Positions 30,609 through 37,938 of a DNA stretch of 64,000 nucleotides are shown here, piece after piece; the first letter of the stretch is position 1, and every line of letters begins with the position of its first letter. The notes under the pieces were generated by a model that saw only the letters and a program-made list of their open reading frames with translations, made no database searches and had not been told where the DNA came from. Origin of the DNA: Shinella zoogloeoides (GTDB lineage Bacteria > Pseudomonadota > Alphaproteobacteria > Rhizobiales > Rhizobiaceae); NCBI RefSeq assembly GCF_022682305.1, contig NZ_CP093528.1:2555501-2619500 (forward strand). The letters are read 5' to 3'. The translations under genes and the position numbers were made by a program.

Positions 30609-31757
30609 TCACCGCGCCAGCACGTCGCGTATCTCCACGAAGTTCGAGCGCACGCGCAGCATGTAGAAGCCGATCGTCGCCAGATGCGTCGGCATGATCC
30701 AGCCGTCTTCCCGGCCGTTCGAGATGATGCTCGGCTGGATGCGCAGCGCGGAGCGAAGCTGGCTGATCGTCGAAGTCCACAACGGCTCGATGCCGCGCGC
30801 CCGGATGACGGCCTCGAAATCCGCACCCGCCGCCGAAAGAATGCCATACTGGGCGTAGAGCTGGCCGTAGGCAAACCAGAAACGGTCGTCCGCACGGGTA
30901 TCGAACCAGCCGTTGTTGTAGAATTCCGAGCGCTCGCGCAGGATCGCCGTGGTGGCGCCGAGGTCGTTCGCCAGACGGTCGAGCAGCTCGATCAGGTTGT
31001 CCGAGCGGCCGTCGAAGATCGCGTCGCAGGCCTCCAGCGAGGCGTTGAACTTGCGCAGGTCCGCCATCGCCGTGCGGTAATAGTTCGGTGTCGGCGTCTT
31101 GGGCAGCAGCGAATCCGAACCGAAATACCAGGTCTCCTCGTCGAACTGGAGATTGCCCCGCGCCCGCTGAAGATCGGCATTAATGCCCGACGTGCCGCGC
31201 ACGCGACCGAGCGAATCCACAAGCTCGACGGCCGTGCGGCGCACCACCTGGTTCACGCCGCGCTGGAAGGAGGCCTTGTTGTCGAACCACGGCGTCTTGT
31301 CCCAGTCCAGCCCGAAAAGCCCGAGCTTGTAGAGCAGCATCGAGGAAATCCAGGCATTCTGGTTGACGTTGAAATCGATAAGGTCGGCCGTCACATCCAC
31401 GATGGCCGAGCGCACGCAGGTCCGCGGCTCCGGCTCGACGGCCTCGCCCGCCGCCGGCGTCGTCGCGTTGCCGGCCGTGGCGGTGCCCGCGTCCTGCCGG
31501 CGCTGGCCGAGATTGTAGCTGTTCACATAGTCGGGATCGAAGCCGCTCCAGACCTGCGTCTGCCAGACGAAATAGCCGTAGAACCCAACGAGCAGGAGCA
31601 GCACGATGCCGATCGGCCCCTTGATGATCCAGCCGCGGGCGCGATACCAGTTCGCCACCGTGATGAAGGGCCACAGGATCCAGGCGATCACCATGCCGAT
31701 ACCCCGGCCGATGGCCGCGAAGATGCGCTGGAAGAACGCGACGATCGGGTCAAGCAT
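30609..31757 (-). CDS. DUF2333-family membrane protein
   Basis: A 382-residue protein. The first part has amphipathic and hydrophobic stretches (IVAFFQRIFAAIGRGIGMVIAWILWPFI) and a membrane helix near residues 47-65 (GPIGIVLLLLVGFYGYFVW). The rest is a large soluble, probably periplasmic domain with Cys in EPRTCVRSAIV, matching DUF2333. It overlaps the stop of the DUF6638-like gene by 8 bases; the inner Met at 31757 is preferred because GAGAGG lies 9 bases upstream. It is the last and only clearly membrane-bound member of the gene block ending here. Function unknown. Confidence 0.75.
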   Translation of the reverse strand: MLDPIVAFFQRIFAAIGRGIGMVIAWILWPFITVANWYRARGWIIKGPIGIVLLLLVGFYGYFVWQTQVWSGFDPDYVNSYNLGQRRQDAGTATAGNATTPAAGEAVEPEPRTCVRSAIVDVTADLIDFNVNQNAWISSMLLYKLGLFGLDWDKTPWFDNKASFQRGVNQVVRRTAVELVDSLGRVRGTSGINADLQRARGNLQFDEETWYFGSDSLLPKTPTPNYYRTAMADLRKFNASLEACDAIFDGRSDNLIELLDRLANDLGATTAILRERSEFYNNGWFDTRADDRFWFAYGQLYAQYGILSAAGADFEAVIRARGIEPLWTSTISQLRSALRIQPSIISNGREDGWIMPTHLATIGFYMLRVRSNFVEIRDVLAR

Positions 31758-33051
31758 TGGCGTCATCCTCTCTGATGCCGAAGAGTTTCCTGCGGAAAGC
31801 AGCCTTGTCCTGCAGATAGGTCCGCGTCAATGTCGCCACAACGTAGGCGCGGAATTTTTCGCTGTAATGCTCATAGGCTGCGTAGAAGCCCTGCTTGTCG
31901 AAGACGAAGCGGGACACGAAGTCGTAGGGAACCATTTGCGAAATCAGACGGTTGACCAGCCACTGGTCCGGATGGTCGGGCGCGGCGCGCACAACGAGGA
32001 AGCGCCGATCCGGCGCGACCTCGTCGATCTTGATCTCGCCGGTCGCCGCCACCGTGCGGGCGGCTTCCATGAGGAAGGGATAGGTGCCGTCTTCCGCGAC
32101 CAGCGCGACATTGTGGTGCATCCAGGTTTGCAGCCAGATGCGGTCGGCCTTTTCGAGATCGGCGGTCGGATCGGCGCGGTTGACGAGGCCGGCCACCGTC
32201 ATGTCCGCCCGATGCTGGAAGAGACCGGACGGCTCCACCCAGGAGGCGCGCGGCAGCTCCAGCCGCTTCGTCGCCGCCAGGAACTCGAAGATGCGCTTGT
32301 GGTCGTCGAGCGCGATATAGCTCACCTGCCAGGGCCGCGAGCGACGGAAGCCCGGCACGCTCGGGTCGCAGATCACCGTCGTCGTCTTGTCGTCGAGGAA
32401 GACGTAAACGCCGCCGAAATGGTTCGCCCAATAGGCTTCGTGGCGGAAGACGAGCTGGTCCGGCACGAGCGCGTTCAGACGGATGTCACCGGTCTGCTTC
32501 GCCAATTCCACCATGCGGTTCAGCATGGCATCGTCCGACCAGGCGTTCGGCACCGTCTTCAACCGGTCCACCAGCCCGCGCAGCTCCGCCGCCTTGCCGA
32601 GCATGTCCTCCGCCGACAGTACCTTGAAGCGCACCTCGTTGATGGAGAGCAGGTCGTCGATATCGTTGACGACCGAGACCGAGTCCTCGATCTCGCCATA
32701 GAGCGCGTCGCGGATAGTGATCGCGTTGATCGCCCGGGCATTGGCCGAGAAGAACTCGTGCATCAGCGCCGCGGTGTTGGAAAAGCTCGTATGCACCACC
32801 GGCAGATTCTCCTGCTCGGGCGTCATGACAATGAAGCGCCGGTTGACGCGGTTGGGGTCGAGATAGTCCCGGTCGCCCAGTTCGTCGGCGATCTCGGGCG
32901 AAAAGCCCGTCATGTCGATACGGAAGCTCGACAGCGCCGTGCGCCGCATCCCGAATCCATCCAGCGCCTTGTTGTAGCGCTCAACCAGATGCGGCTCGTC
33001 GACGGGCAGGAGCCGGCCATAGATCAATTCGGCTTCGAGGAGGCGTTTCAT
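31750..33051 (-). CDS. Uncharacterised protein, DUF6638-like
   Basis: A 433-residue soluble protein, which I recall as the family catalogued as DUF6638 (not checked). Notable segments are LIYGRLLPVDEPHLVERYNKALDGFG at the N-terminus, FVFDKQGFYAAYEHYSEKFRAYVVATLTRTYLQDKAAFRRKLFG at the C-terminus and a central LDDKTTTVICDPSVPGFRRSRPWQVSYIALDDHKRIFEFLAATKRLELP. No signal peptide or membrane helix. GGAGAATTG precedes the ATG; the start overlaps the upstream DUF559 stop by one base (TGATG). Function unknown; gene order suggests that it works with the AAA ATPase. Confidence 0.7.
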   Translation of the reverse strand: MKRLLEAELIYGRLLPVDEPHLVERYNKALDGFGMRRTALSSFRIDMTGFSPEIADELGDRDYLDPNRVNRRFIVMTPEQENLPVVHTSFSNTAALMHEFFSANARAINAITIRDALYGEIEDSVSVVNDIDDLLSINEVRFKVLSAEDMLGKAAELRGLVDRLKTVPNAWSDDAMLNRMVELAKQTGDIRLNALVPDQLVFRHEAYWANHFGGVYVFLDDKTTTVICDPSVPGFRRSRPWQVSYIALDDHKRIFEFLAATKRLELPRASWVEPSGLFQHRADMTVAGLVNRADPTADLEKADRIWLQTWMHHNVALVAEDGTYPFLMEAARTVAATGEIKIDEVAPDRRFLVVRAAPDHPDQWLVNRLISQMVPYDFVSRFVFDKQGFYAAYEHYSEKFRAYVVATLTRTYLQDKAAFRRKLFGIREDDANA

Positions 33052-33452
33052 CAATTCTCCGTTGCGGGCAAGAATATCAGATCGGTTTCCACCACACACT
33101 CAGCCAGCCGGCCTTCGCATACTGCCAAAATAGTCTCCAGAACGGCCTCCCGTTTCGCAACCACGTCCACACTCCAGAAACGAGCGATGGACCAGCCATT
33201 CATGCGCATGAATTCATTTCGCTTCCGGTCGTATTCACTACCTGCATGCTGGCTTCCGTCAACCTCGACGACCAGCATTTCCTCTCGGCATGCGAAGTCT
33301 GCGAAATAAGGCCCGATGGCGAGTTGCCTTACGAACTTGAAGCCATTCAAGCGCCGCCCGCGCAGATCCGACCAGAGCCATGTTTCCGCATCATTATCGA
33401 CTTGACGCAGTTGCCTTGCTCTTTCGGTCTTCTTGCCGTTTGCGCCCCGCAT
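33051..33452 (-). CDS. DUF559 endonuclease-like protein
   Basis: A 133-residue protein of the DUF559 family, related in fold to very-short-patch-repair and restriction-type endonucleases. Core segments are DAETWLWSDLRGRRLNGFKFVRQLAIGPYFADFACREEMLVVEVDGSQH (the EVDG...Q part resembles the catalytic E/D-x-K-like strand) and YDRKRNEFMRMNGWSIARFWSVDV. It starts immediately beside the 138-bp repeat at 33455-33592, and the repeat end GAGGGG lies 2 bases before the ATG, so the repeat appears to supply the ribosome binding site. It interrupts the gene block between the AAA ATPase and the DUF6638-like gene. Its activity is not shown. Confidence 0.8.
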   Translation of the reverse strand: MRGANGKKTERARQLRQVDNDAETWLWSDLRGRRLNGFKFVRQLAIGPYFADFACREEMLVVEVDGSQHAGSEYDRKRNEFMRMNGWSIARFWSVDVVAKREAVLETILAVCEGRLAECVVETDLIFLPATEN

Positions 33453-33454
33453 AG

Positions 33455-33592
33455 CCCCTCACCCTAACCCTCTCCCCGCAAGCGGGGAGAGGGGACGCGC
33501 CCAACGCGACGGAGATGATTGAGGAAACCGGCGCGACTTGTCTCCTTCTCCCCGCTTGCGGGGAGAAGGTGGCCGGCAGGCGGGATGAGGGG
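33455..33592. repeat. 138-bp palindromic intergenic repeat, copy 2 (inverted)
   Basis: Same element as copy 1 in the opposite orientation: it begins CCCCTCACCCTAACCC and ends GGCGGGATGAGGGG, with both palindromes intact. It is exactly 138 bp. It sits between the AAA ATPase stop (33602) and the DUF559 ATG (33452) and provides GAGGGG upstream of that ATG. Confidence 0.87.
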
Positions 33593-33601
33593 CCATCATC
33601 C

Positions 33602-35512
33602 TCACCACCGTCCTTCCGCCTTCATCGTCTCGATCTCCCGGATCGCCTTCTTCCGCTGGCGTTCGCGGCGGATGATGTCGGAAACGGCGGCGTCGTCGGA
33701 TTTGTCGGTGTAGCGGAACTCCGAGTCGGCGTAGCGGTTGATCTCCTGCAAAACCATCTCCATCGAGATCGGCCCGCGCAGCTCTTCGATCATCGCCTTC
33801 TTCTCATCGTAGCCCTTGTGCATGAAGGCGTCCGCCGTCGCGAACCAGTCGTCCGGCAGGTCGACGTCCATGGCGCGCATCTTGATGGCGTCGGTGATGT
33901 TCTTGATGGCGCGGCCCGTGAAGCGCGGCTCGGCGAGCTTGATGCGATGGAGATAGGCGCCCACATCGGCAAGCGACCTGATAGCGCCCTGTTCCTTCTC
34001 ATGCACCTCCCAGACGGCGAGAAGGCCGTCCTCCTGGGGCCTGGCATGCTGCTCGTAGGAGGTGGAGACGGCGCGCTTGATCTCCTGCCCTTCGAAAAGC
34101 GTGTGCTCGCCGAGCGGGATCGAATGGTTCTTGCCGACGAGCATGGCGAAGATGTCGATATAATCGTCCTCGGTCTGCGGCCCGTCTACCAGCCAGCGGG
34201 CGCCGGCACGCTGGCGTAGCGCGTCGTCGACATTTTCCGGATAGTTGGAGAACATGCCGAAGGTGCAATTGCCGCGCACCACCGTCGAGGCGCCGGCGAA
34301 GCTCTCCATCAGCACGGCTGTCACCTCATGCTGGCCGGCCGAGGCGCGGTCGTCGGAACGCTTGGCTGCGACCTGGTCCACATCGTCGATGGTGCCGAAG
34401 CCGATCGCCTTCGGATTGATGACGTTGTTGACGAATTCCTTGCAGTTCTGGCCGGACTTGCCCTGATAGGAGGAGATCTGGTCGACGCCGAAATTCTCGT
34501 AGTGGAAGGCGTAGCCGGCGATCTGGCAGTAGTCGTTGACGAGGCCCGCGAGCATCTGGATGAGGATCGTCTTGCCGGTGCCCGGCATGCCGTCGCCGAT
34601 GAAGGTGAAGAGGAAGCCACCGAGTTCGACGAACGGGTTCATCTGCCGCTCGAAATCGTAGGCGACAAGCATCTTGGCGAGCTTCATCGCCTGGTATTTG
34701 GCGATGTGGTTGCCGATGATCTCGTTCGGCTTCTTGAAGGTCATGACCAGCGGCTTGCGCTTCTGGCCCGGCGCGACGTCGAAGCCGGACAGCGTGAAAT
34801 CGTCCTGCTCGATACGGATATGCGCGTTCTCGAAGCCGGCAAGACCGGTGAAACGCGCGCGGCGGCCGATCAGCCCCTCGATGGCGACACGCGAGAAGGC
34901 GCGGGCGCGGCTGATGAGCGCCGCATCGTCCGGCGCACCGGCAAGCGTACGGTCGAGGCCGGCGACCATGCTCTTGAGCGCATCCTGCGGCGTGTCGAAA
35001 AGATAATCCGGCTCCCCGCCATCCTCCACCGGCTCGCCCTCGCCCGGCAGCGTCGCGCCGAGATAGGCGGCGAAGGTGAAGGCGGCGATGTAGGCGGAGG
35101 CGGAAAGCAGGGCCTTGAACTGGTTCGCCTCGTCGCCAGTCAAAGGCGCGGCGAGGTTGCGCGATTGCAGGCCTTCGAGATTCGTCTGGCGGGAGAAGGC
35201 ATCCGTCACGGCGAGCGCCACCTGAAGGCCGCGGCGCGCGCGATAGAGCACGGCATGCTGCTGCGGTGAGAGCAGCGGATCGGCGGCGCGCACGGACTGG
35301 ATGGTCTTCGCCAGCTCCACCTCGCGGGTGCGGCGACTGCCGGCGGTCGAGACCGTCGAGACGAAGCGCCGGCCGGTGCCGGCAAGCGCGGCGCCGCTCT
35401 TGCCGTCATCGCTTTCGAGGATGACGAGCTTGGAAACGAGGCTCTGCGCGACCGCCTGGTGCCTGGCGATATCGTCCTCGTGGATCGTCGTCAGTCCGGC
35501 GTTGAGGCTCAT
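33602..35512 (-). CDS. AAA+ ATPase of the uncharacterised gene block
   Basis: A 636-residue ATPase. Residues 1-290 form an N-terminal region with a hydrophobic stretch (SAYIAAFTFAAYLGATL) and no clear domain. The AAA core has Walker A GDGMPGTGKT (306-315), a segment ISSYQGKSGQNCKEFV (about 346) resembling the pore-loop and following helix of classic AAA unfoldases, Walker B with FGTIDDVDQ (about 372-380), sensor-1 NCTFGMFSN, and an arginine-finger region DDALRQRAGARW (about 429-440). GAGGG precedes the ATG, and the upstream gene stops 1 base before it. This looks like a substrate-threading or remodelling AAA protein; the target is unknown. Confidence 0.85.
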   Translation of the reverse strand: MSLNAGLTTIHEDDIARHQAVAQSLVSKLVILESDDGKSGAALAGTGRRFVSTVSTAGSRRTREVELAKTIQSVRAADPLLSPQQHAVLYRARRGLQVALAVTDAFSRQTNLEGLQSRNLAAPLTGDEANQFKALLSASAYIAAFTFAAYLGATLPGEGEPVEDGGEPDYLFDTPQDALKSMVAGLDRTLAGAPDDAALISRARAFSRVAIEGLIGRRARFTGLAGFENAHIRIEQDDFTLSGFDVAPGQKRKPLVMTFKKPNEIIGNHIAKYQAMKLAKMLVAYDFERQMNPFVELGGFLFTFIGDGMPGTGKTILIQMLAGLVNDYCQIAGYAFHYENFGVDQISSYQGKSGQNCKEFVNNVINPKAIGFGTIDDVDQVAAKRSDDRASAGQHEVTAVLMESFAGASTVVRGNCTFGMFSNYPENVDDALRQRAGARWLVDGPQTEDDYIDIFAMLVGKNHSIPLGEHTLFEGQEIKRAVSTSYEQHARPQEDGLLAVWEVHEKEQGAIRSLADVGAYLHRIKLAEPRFTGRAIKNITDAIKMRAMDVDLPDDWFATADAFMHKGYDEKKAMIEELRGPISMEMVLQEINRYADSEFRYTDKSDDAAVSDIIRRERQRKKAIREIETMKAEGRW

Positions 35513-35513
35513 C

Positions 35514-36662
35514 TCATCCCTCGCTGATTACCTGGTTTCCTGAAATCACATGCACCTTGTAGGCGCCGAAAATGCCCTGCGTCTCGCCCGCGGCATAGAG
35601 CGCCTGATAGGCGTCGTGCGGCACGAGCGCATGCTTCTCGTAGGCGCTGACGCCCATGCGGGCGGCCTCGAGGTCGTCGGTCTCGATATGGAATTCCTCC
35701 TGCGCCGGGGTGGAACTCCAGAACCCCTTCTGCGCCGGACGTTCGGCCTTGGAGAAGATCTCCTGCACCGTCCAGGTCAGGAGCCAGGCATTCTCCGGCT
35801 TGCGCACCTTGGAGAGGATATCGTTGACCCGCGCATTGTTCTCCGTGATGCCCGCCGAATAGAACGGGCCGAGCACGAAGCGGCGAAGCTGCTTGGGGTG
35901 CAGCGTCGGAAAATCCCTGTCGAGATTGGTGGCGATGGTGGCCGGCGTCAGCGAATAGGCGCTGTTCTTCAGCGCAAAATCGTCGAAACGGCTGGCAAGC
36001 TCGGGGTTGAGGAGTCCACCGACAGGCAAGGGGATATCCACATCGGGATTGAGCTTGCCGTCACCGCTCACCAGCATCTTGACGACGTTTTCCGACGAAT
36101 CCTCGATGGTCGCCATATAGACCATCGGCAGCGTCGCCGTGCCGTCGAACGCGCCCCAGCAGACGACATAATAGGGCCGCATCGTCTTCGGGTTCACCGC
36201 GACGCGGATCGTTTCCGGCAGCACGAAGGGCGAGAAGATGTCGCCCTTGCCGATCTGTTCGAGATAGAGCCTTTCGGCCATGCGGGTCTGCAGGTCGGTC
36301 GGGAACGCCTTCTGCCGCAGGATGAAATCCGCCATCTCAGTGCGTAGCTGGTCAGCGTTGGGGATCGCGGCGAGGCGCTTTTCGGCGCTCTGGCGGTCGT
36401 TCTCCAGCTCCAGCACGTTCTGGAAGACGGGAAAGCCGCTCTCGGCGCGCGACACGCGGAACTGCTGCACGAAGCCGATGCGGTTCTCCCAGCAGGCGAA
36501 GGAAGCCTTCAGCCGCGCGAGATAGGGCATAACGACCTCGCCCACCACGCTGTTGCGGTAGAGCGGCGAGTTGCGATCACCGAGGAAGATTTCGAGGCCA
36601 CTCATGGCCGCCCGGATGGTCGAAAAATATTGTGCGACGGCGCTGTCGGCGGAGATGGTCAT
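35514..36662 (-). CDS. Uncharacterised 382-aa protein of the AAA block
   Basis: I do not recognise the family. The protein is soluble and mixed helix/strand; it begins MTISADSAVAQYFSTIRAAMSGLEIFLGDRNSPLYRNSVVGEVVMPYLARLK and has RPYYVVCWGAFDGTATLPMVYMATIEDSSENVVK in the middle, suggesting a compact domain. The ATG at 36662 follows GGAAGGTTGCC; it stops one base before the AAA ATPase ATG, so the two should be co-translated and probably interact. The 138-bp repeat (copy 3) lies directly upstream and separates it from the coiled-coil gene. Confidence 0.7.
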   Translation of the reverse strand: MTISADSAVAQYFSTIRAAMSGLEIFLGDRNSPLYRNSVVGEVVMPYLARLKASFACWENRIGFVQQFRVSRAESGFPVFQNVLELENDRQSAEKRLAAIPNADQLRTEMADFILRQKAFPTDLQTRMAERLYLEQIGKGDIFSPFVLPETIRVAVNPKTMRPYYVVCWGAFDGTATLPMVYMATIEDSSENVVKMLVSGDGKLNPDVDIPLPVGGLLNPELASRFDDFALKNSAYSLTPATIATNLDRDFPTLHPKQLRRFVLGPFYSAGITENNARVNDILSKVRKPENAWLLTWTVQEIFSKAERPAQKGFWSSTPAQEEFHIETDDLEAARMGVSAYEKHALVPHDAYQALYAAGETQGIFGAYKVHVISGNQVISEG

Positions 36663-36691
36663 GGCAACCTTCCGCAAGAGGCGTGCAGCAG

Positions 36692-36829
36692 CCCTTCATC
36701 CGGCCTGCCGGCCACCTTCTCCTTGGCTGCGGGGCGAAGGAGGTATGCCGGGCCGGTTTCCCCAATCCTCAACGTTGCATGAGGCACATCCCCTCTCCCC
36801 GCTTGCGGGGAGAGGGTTAGGGCGAAGGG
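36692..36829. repeat. 138-bp palindromic intergenic repeat, copy 3
   Basis: The same 138-bp element as copy 1 and in the same orientation, but with a degraded left palindrome (CTCCTTGGCTGCGGGG) and ends changed to CCCTTCA / CGAAGGG. The right palindrome is perfect. It lies between the coiled-coil gene and the 382-aa gene of the same strand. Confidence 0.85.
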
Positions 36830-36849
36830 CAATCGGATGCCTGCAACCA

Positions 36850-37938
36850 TCACGATTTCACGTAGTTGGCCGTATTGTGCTTGTCCATCACCGACTGGAA
36901 GCGGCGGGCGAAGGCATCGTCCGCAAGCTTCTTGCGGCGCTGGATATCCTGCGTCGCCAGCATGTTCTTCTCGTGCATCTCCAGAAGGTCGCCGATATGG
37001 CGCTGGGCGGCCGAGCCGATGCCGGCCATGGTTTCTTCCGCAGCGGTGTCGACCTGCGAGCCGAGCGTGTTGATCTTGTGCGCGACGTCCTGCTGGGCGG
37101 CCGTCTTCAGCGAGTCTTCCAGCGCCTTGTAGAGCACGATGCGCTGCTCGGTATCGATGGTCAGCTTGTTGATCAGCGTGTTCTGCGCGGCGATCTGGTT
37201 GTTAAGCGAATCCACGAAGGTCTGGAACATGGAGGTGTAGCGCTCCAGCGTCTGGCTCTCGGCCAGAAGCTCCTGCTCCTTCGCCTGCATCTGGTTGTAC
37301 TCGGTCGCCAGCGCCGAGCGCTCGCCCTCGAGATCCGTGCGGGTCTTCTGCTCGGTCGAGGCCGCGATGCGGTTCTCGAGGTCCATGAGGAGCGGGTTCA
37401 GTTCCTCGATGCGGTTCTGCGTCGCCTCCAGGTTCGCCATGGTGCCCTTGCGGCGCTCGATCACCTGCACGAGGCTCGTTTCGGAGGTCTTGTAGCGCTG
37501 GTCGAGGATCGACTTCTGCTCCTTGAGGATGCCGACGATCGTGTCGGACTTGGAGAGCAGTTCCTGCAGGTTGCCGGCCAGCGACATGTTGCGCACGCGG
37601 TCGGTGCGCATGCGCTGCATCTTCTGCTTGGAGAAGATGCCGATGAACTTCTCGTAGCCCGTATAGCTCTTCATGCTCTCGAATTCGGTGCCGAAGACGT
37701 TCGTGGCGTCTTCGAGACCGATGATGAGGTCGGCGATATTGCCTTCCATCACCTTCTGCTGGGCGATGACGTCCTGGATGCGGGCATTCTCGATGTCGAA
37801 ATTGACGTCGCCGAGCTTGGTGTCGGCTTTCGCGAACTGTTCCAGCACAACGCCGGACTGCTCCAGCTTGCCGCGCATCTCGTTGACGACGCTGCGGGTC
37901 TTGTCGATTTCAGCATCGAAGTTCTGAAGTGTGGCCAT
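36850..37938 (-). CDS. Long coiled-coil protein of the AAA block
   Basis: A 362-residue, Gln/Glu/Lys-rich protein predicted to be almost all helix with long coiled coils (for example IEELNPLLMDLENRIAASTEQKTRTDLEGERSALATEYNQMQAKEQELLAESQTLERY). The layout recalls TelA/KlaA toxic-anion-resistance proteins, but sequence similarity is weak and I do not assign it. The ATG at 37938 follows GGGGAAAAGGCAT. A TATAGT at 38006-38011 (minus) could be its -10. It is the first gene of the block and may act as a scaffold or adaptor for the AAA ATPase. Confidence 0.7.
   Translation of the reverse strand: MATLQNFDAEIDKTRSVVNEMRGKLEQSGVVLEQFAKADTKLGDVNFDIENARIQDVIAQQKVMEGNIADLIIGLEDATNVFGTEFESMKSYTGYEKFIGIFSKQKMQRMRTDRVRNMSLAGNLQELLSKSDTIVGILKEQKSILDQRYKTSETSLVQVIERRKGTMANLEATQNRIEELNPLLMDLENRIAASTEQKTRTDLEGERSALATEYNQMQAKEQELLAESQTLERYTSMFQTFVDSLNNQIAAQNTLINKLTIDTEQRIVLYKALEDSLKTAAQQDVAHKINTLGSQVDTAAEETMAGIGSAAQRHIGDLLEMHEKNMLATQDIQRRKKLADDAFARRFQSVMDKHNTANYVKS

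Follow-up and report, generated by a model that had tools for sequence, protein, structure and literature searches.

Does the group of minus-strand genes around an AAA ATPase in Shinella zoogloeoides encode a single machine and, if so, of what kind? We addressed this question in a window of 64,000 nucleotides, the whole stretch of DNA that was analyzed; the assembly containing it measures 5.14 Mb. An initial annotation had recognized five genes here, and the list of open reading frames together with Pfam matches located all five on the minus strand where they had been placed. In minus-strand order, the locus consists of a gene that we label cytochrome-c-like on account of its CxxCH motif; cc, which encodes a coiled-coil protein of 362 aa (36850..37938); unk, which encodes a protein of 382 aa (35514..36662); the AAA gene (33602..35512; 636 aa); a DUF559 gene; the gene for a DUF6638 (PF20343) protein of 433 aa (31750..33051; Pfam E = 1.3e-79); the gene for a DUF2333 (PF10095) protein (30609..31766; Pfam E = 1.4e-15), 385 aa long, or 382 aa if translated from the ATG at 31757; and the gene for formate-THF ligase. 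Neither Cc nor Unk matches a Pfam family over the cut-off.

The genes had been described as packed with overlaps or 1-base gaps wherever repeats do not intervene. The tight junctions and the repeats were both found: a 1-base gap separates unk and AAA, the DUF6638 and DUF2333 genes overlap by 8 or 17 bases, depending on the start codon of the latter, and the two wider spacings, 187 bases between cc and unk and 550 bases between AAA and the DUF6638 gene, each hold one copy of a 143-nt repeat (36691..36833 and, between AAA and the DUF559 gene, 33451..33593). These copies, inverted relative to each other and 82% identical, bracket the unk-AAA pair. The description had overlooked, however, the complete minus-strand DUF559 gene between AAA and DUF6638 (PF04480, endonuclease-like; 133 aa; 33051..33452; Pfam E = 5.4e-32), which has one base in common with the DUF6638 gene.

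We examined how these genes are distributed. Among 299 Pseudomonadota genomes, AAA, unk, and DUF6638 each occurred in 20, and the three lists, matched by eye, were identical; cc occurred in 24, which a script comparison with the AAA list resolved into the same 20 plus four more. We enlarged 15 of the 19 non-window matches to 14–18 kb, leaving out four from the same family. All 15 loci carried cc-unk-AAA-DUF6638 on one strand and in this order; 11 of them come from families other than that of the window, including one from a different class. Within Rhizobiales, 77 of 80 loci preserved all five genes in order and strand, with the three exceptions at contig ends; these 80 are the best of at least 533 relatives, picked by AAA similarity, and are uninformative on genomes lacking the AAA gene. 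Named Sinorhizobium, Mesorhizobium, and Shinella carry the block, and relatives of cc were also present in Rhodobacterales, such as Roseovarius. The AAA protein of the window reaches 97% identity with proteins that bear the name Shinella. Since it is conserved far beyond the genus, the gene set does not represent a chance assembly. The genes are not scattered, and the matching phylogenetic profiles and fixed gene order uphold the earlier proposal of a single functional unit: cc, unk, AAA, and DUF6638 form a four-gene core that is inherited as one unit with a membrane partner and probably encodes one undescribed machine. Literature searches found no paper describing this gene system.

The DUF559 gene sits at a junction whose content varies. 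Among the 69 Rhizobiales loci in which AAA and DUF6638 were both fully read, the gap between them exceeded 200 bp in 43 and was shorter than 50 bp in 26. Recognizable cargo was present in 40 of the 43 wide gaps (DUF559, 19; ParE/RelE-type toxin with an HTH antitoxin, 10, or with an RHH antitoxin, 7; PIN, 2; HicB, 1; PLD, 1), the other three being without these families; representatives were assigned by Pfam and the rest by tblastn to those representatives. Toxin–antitoxin-type genes filled this slot in 20 of the 69 loci. At the other junctions, gaps above 200 bp were seen in 19 of 75 (cc-unk), 3 of 71 (unk-AAA), and 0 of 52 (DUF6638-DUF2333) cases, and gaps above 400 bp in 3 of 75, 2 of 71, and 0 of 52, respectively. 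Elsewhere the slot held AbiJ_NTD4 and DUF3825 genes (loci L022 and L024), a DUF4145-like gene below the cut-off (L026), and, in S. meliloti Ak57, an ISRm16 transposase. We interpret this varied cargo as passenger genes that inserted at a single junction tolerant of them.

The same cargo could instead belong to an anti-phage or genetic-conflict system, in which AAA and its partners would sense or unfold an invader product and the toxin–antitoxin and nuclease genes of the slot would form part of the response. Such a role would suit the 40 of 69 Rhizobiales slots that hold these families, the AbiJ_NTD4 and DUF3825 genes, the plasmid-borne copies described below, and weak PADLOC matches (AAA to TRIP13, 26.6 bits; the DUF559 protein to PDC-S37, Hhe, and PDC-S03). 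However, 26 of the 69 loci leave no room for cargo, no relative was found in phages and none was confirmed in viral contigs, and the block is flanked on opposite sides by thymidine kinase (found at 61 of the 80 Rhizobiales loci) and formate-THF ligase (74 of 80), an arrangement suggestive of vertical inheritance at a single site. We consider an anti-phage role very unlikely. The earlier statement that the block resembles no recognized defence, secretion, or transport system agrees with our search of the PADLOC 2023 models, in which Cc, Unk, DUF6638, and DUF2333 had no match and AAA had only the weak one to TRIP13.

We characterized the AAA protein by its motifs and relatives. It matches PF00004 with 40.8 bits against a cut-off of 21.2, and its best PDB relatives in a profile search were the ATPase domain of an i-AAA protease (E = 3e-5), VCP-like proteins, proteasomal Rpt/PAN, and katanin, which places it in the classic clade. 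For the motifs we compared 93 AAA sequences (the window's own, 75 from Rhizobiales, 15 from the enlarged loci, and those of Vibrio and R. leguminosarum); the motif names and placements are our assignment, guided by profile alignments. Walker A (306–315, GDGxPGTGKT), the pore-loop-like Y349-Q-G-K-S, sensor 1 (N423), the arginines of the SRH (R433, R435, and R439), and the sensor-2-like G533-R534 were present in all 93. The Walker A, candidate arginine-finger, and pore-loop-like residues noted initially were retained; Walker B, likewise noted, was present (D376-D377), but with Asp in place of the catalytic Glu in 93 of 93 sequences, none of which had the hhhhDE form. An Asp is unusual here and tends to lower the rate of ATP hydrolysis. 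Because the replacement is universal in our set, hydrolysis by this AAA protein may be slow or absent, and by its sequence we class it as a variant of the classic AAA ATPase. It does not represent a well-studied family with a known substrate. The M41 zinc protease domain of FtsH and the i-AAA proteases is absent, as no peptidase family appeared in the Pfam scan. With Asp invariant at its catalytic position, the family also offers a test of how that residue works.

Alternatively, the protein might not thread at all but act as a slow ATP-dependent switch or scaffold, its Asp-type Walker B holding ATP for a long time while its ring serves as a membrane-associated organizer of Cc, Unk, and DUF6638. 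The presence of D377 instead of Glu in all 93 sequences, with every other motor residue invariant, would fit such a role, but all 93 likewise retain the sensor 1 residue, the arginines of the SRH, and the Tyr of the pore loop, as expected of a working ring motor. We regard the switch as rather unlikely and retain the motor as our working view.

The fifth gene behaves differently from the other four. DUF2333 followed DUF6638 in all four enlarged loci of the same family and in 79 of the 80 Rhizobiales loci, whereas 10 of the 11 enlarged loci outside the family had a downstream gene of 215–266 aa; four of these ten are DUF1523 by Pfam and the other six were assigned by similar sequence. In the eleventh (L031), no such downstream gene was seen. 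As a family, DUF2333 is much more widely distributed than the core: it was found in 68 of the 299 Pseudomonadota genomes, only nine of which have AAA. By these sequence assignments, DUF2333 lies outside the universal core and is replaced by DUF1523 in other lineages. Hydropathy identified two N-terminal hydrophobic segments of membrane type in the window's DUF2333 protein (~15–37 and 43–70), consistent with the membrane partner proposed at the outset and making DUF2333 a likely one; among six DUF1523 proteins tested, five had two hydrophobic segments and one (L028) had a single segment.

The four-gene core also exists on plasmids, namely 0.9 Mb Vibrio plasmids and R. leguminosarum pRlX5. The Vibrio core L173 matched the family profiles with E-values of 1.2e-89 (cc), 5.5e-80 (unk), 2.1e-200 (AAA), and 9.4e-80 (DUF6638). 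AAA and unk were found in the same ten plasmid records; the Sinorhizobium and Shinella records among these are 3.5–4.6 Mb in size and resemble chromosomes deposited as plasmids. Next to the cores of the Vibrio plasmids and of pRlX5, tblastn detected no DUF2333, and hydropathy identified no membrane protein beside the Vibrio core. Thus, of the five-gene block originally envisaged, the four-gene core held across lineages and DUF2333 did not, and a membrane anchor may not be general.

We then considered the coiled-coil protein. Hydropathy found no membrane-type segment in Cc, as anticipated for a soluble coiled-coil partner, and its most conserved part is ~221–300. It is similar in length and coiled-coil look to the TelA (PF05816) toxic-anion resistance proteins, and a test of tellurite sensitivity had been suggested on first inspection; a TelA link was not supported, as profile–profile comparison by hhalign gave a probability of 0.3%, Cc had no Pfam match, and no TelA match was found in this genome. 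Among 190 genomes of the window's family, which we take as Rhizobiaceae in the wide sense, AAA was present in 113, cc in 120, and neither in 70. All 113 AAA-bearing genomes had a cc match, two of these being cut at contig ends. Of the seven genomes with cc only, five had a decayed cc (G043, G107, G265, G433, and G463), one (G314) had a weak match within a 1623-aa frame, and one (G404) is a 68%-complete genome with a contig that ends within unk; a sixth decayed cc (G253) came from the 299-genome sample.

At six AAA-less loci (L144-L147, L177, and L178), the decayed cc adjoins DUF2333 in every case, with thymidine kinase adjoining in five and formate-THF ligase in three, while tblastn detected none of unk, AAA, and DUF6638 in these stretches. 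G391 and G463 carry the same genus label (g246), yet only one of them has AAA, so that at least one loss of AAA probably took place within a genus. The segment of Cc at 273–296 is strongly constrained when the full system is present, 14 of its 24 columns being at least 95% conserved in 95 full-system sequences. In the six AAA-less loci it had 0–25% identity to the consensus; five of them lacked 12–22 of its positions and the remaining one lacked 2. Block 228–272 kept 27–58% identity there, and the protein had diverged throughout, mostly to 20–35% identity in blocks other than 273–296. These results suggest that segment 273–296 serves the AAA motor; since the whole of Cc is diverged in the six loci, the link is suggestive rather than proof. 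Lineages that lack the AAA trio and carry a Cc altered in one conserved segment constitute a natural deletion series, in which the key interaction is testable at once.

The persistence of the cc-DUF2333 pair without AAA also bears on whether the system is a bacterial analogue of ESCRT-III/Vps4, in which polymers of Cc, bound to the membrane at DUF2333 or DUF1523, would be disassembled by AAA. The soluble coiled coil of Cc and its conserved C-terminal segment, which goes with the AAA protein, also speak for such an analogue. On the other hand, the Pfam matches of Cc and AAA include no ESCRT-III, PspA/Vipp1, or MIT family. We consider this analogue distinctly unlikely.

The other two core proteins were approached through predicted structures. 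The AF2 model of Unk is confident and consists of a helical N-terminal part followed by a beta-beta-alpha-alpha-beta-beta part, which is T-fold-like at low significance; T-fold is the family to which we take its structural matches to belong. DUF6638 likewise gave a confident AF2 model, which had no significant fold match in the PDB.

A possible lead to the physiology of the block comes from S. meliloti. The SMc numbers of the block are our guess from neighbouring genes. A TonB-dependent hemoglobin-type receptor gene is located close to the block in S. meliloti Ak57. The literature places a ChvI-bound DNA fragment of S. meliloti inside SMc02733 (PMC3687685) and equates shmR with SMc02726 (PMC2848241, PMC8343143). 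Given this number for shmR and the nearby receptor gene, SMc02733 may lie in or near the block.

Taken together, the sequences establish which genes make up the set and that they are inherited jointly, and they support an AAA motor that has Cc for a dedicated partner and lies near a membrane protein. Beyond this, we give an about even chance to Cc, Unk, AAA, and DUF6638 forming one AAA remodelling machine, with an exchangeable membrane protein tethering it to the inner membrane. We infer the complex, its ring, threading and direction of work, its membrane site, and the adaptor role of Cc as follows. AAA would assemble into a ring and use ATP and the Y349 pore loop to pull Cc, or a client delivered by Cc, by way of the C-terminal segment of Cc (~273–296); Unk and DUF6638, as further dedicated subunits, would serve to select the substrate or to couple it; and the anchor, DUF2333 here and DUF1523 elsewhere, would hold the machine at the inner membrane. 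A more specific version, which we treat as a long shot, is a membrane-remodelling motor in which Cc, once assembled at DUF2333 or DUF1523 on the inner membrane, would be pulled apart via 273–296 by a ring of the Asp-type AAA protein that bears DUF6638 and a T-fold-like ring of Unk as its cap. AAA and its coiled-coil partner occur in 113 of the 190 sampled family genomes and also on Vibrio plasmids, yet we found no name or phenotype for them.

How does the tethered remodelling machine compare with known systems? The more specific version would resemble ESCRT-III/Vps4 in logic, not ancestry: the likeness lies in the predicted arrangement of a coiled-coil partner with an AAA-linked C-terminal segment near a membrane protein, whereas no sequence relation was seen for Cc and the Pfam scan gave no MIT match for AAA. 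Unk may resemble the tunnelling-fold enzymes (urate oxidase, DHNA, PTPS, and GTP cyclohydrolase), a candidate likeness of low significance that was obtained with a predicted model. The closest comparison is with the classic AAA ATPases, such as the i-AAA protease, CDC48/VCP, PAN/Rpt, and katanin, with which the AAA protein shares the AAA core, Walker A, sensor 1, the SRH arginines, and the pore-loop aromatic residue. Unlike these, it has neither a protease domain nor a second AAA domain in the Pfam scan, its catalytic Glu is Asp throughout the 93 sequences, it carries an N-terminal region of its own (~240 aa, without a Pfam match), and it is accompanied by a different set of partner genes.

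The junction between the AAA ATPase gene and the DUF6638 gene is a polymorphic cargo slot. Among the 69 Rhizobiales loci in which both genes were fully read, 40 of the 43 gaps longer than 200 bp at this junction contain DUF559, toxin–antitoxin, PIN, HicB or PLD genes. In the window the slot holds the DUF559 gene at 33051–33452, and other loci with such a slot include L057, L059, L062, L066, L087, L117, L125 and L133. The pair formed by unk and the AAA gene is flanked by two copies of a 143-nt repeat (82%) in inverted orientation, at 33451–33593 and 36691–36833.

In six genomes of the Rhizobiaceae in the wide sense that lack unk, AAA and DUF6638 (L144–L147, L177 and L178), a decayed coiled-coil gene and the DUF2333 gene are left as a minimal pair, which is adjoined by thymidine kinase at five of these loci. 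The core of coiled-coil, unk, AAA and DUF6638 genes also adjoins an mfd gene on plasmids of ~0.9 Mb in Vibrio parahaemolyticus and V. vulnificus (L173 and L174). The matches H1–H5 in the plasmid collection are Sinorhizobium and Shinella records of 3.5–4.6 Mb, which look like chromosomes filed as plasmids.

Outside the window, SMc02733 of S. meliloti contains a ChvI-bound fragment, according to PMC3687685; this gene may lie in or near the S. meliloti counterpart of the block, a placing that we regard as putative.
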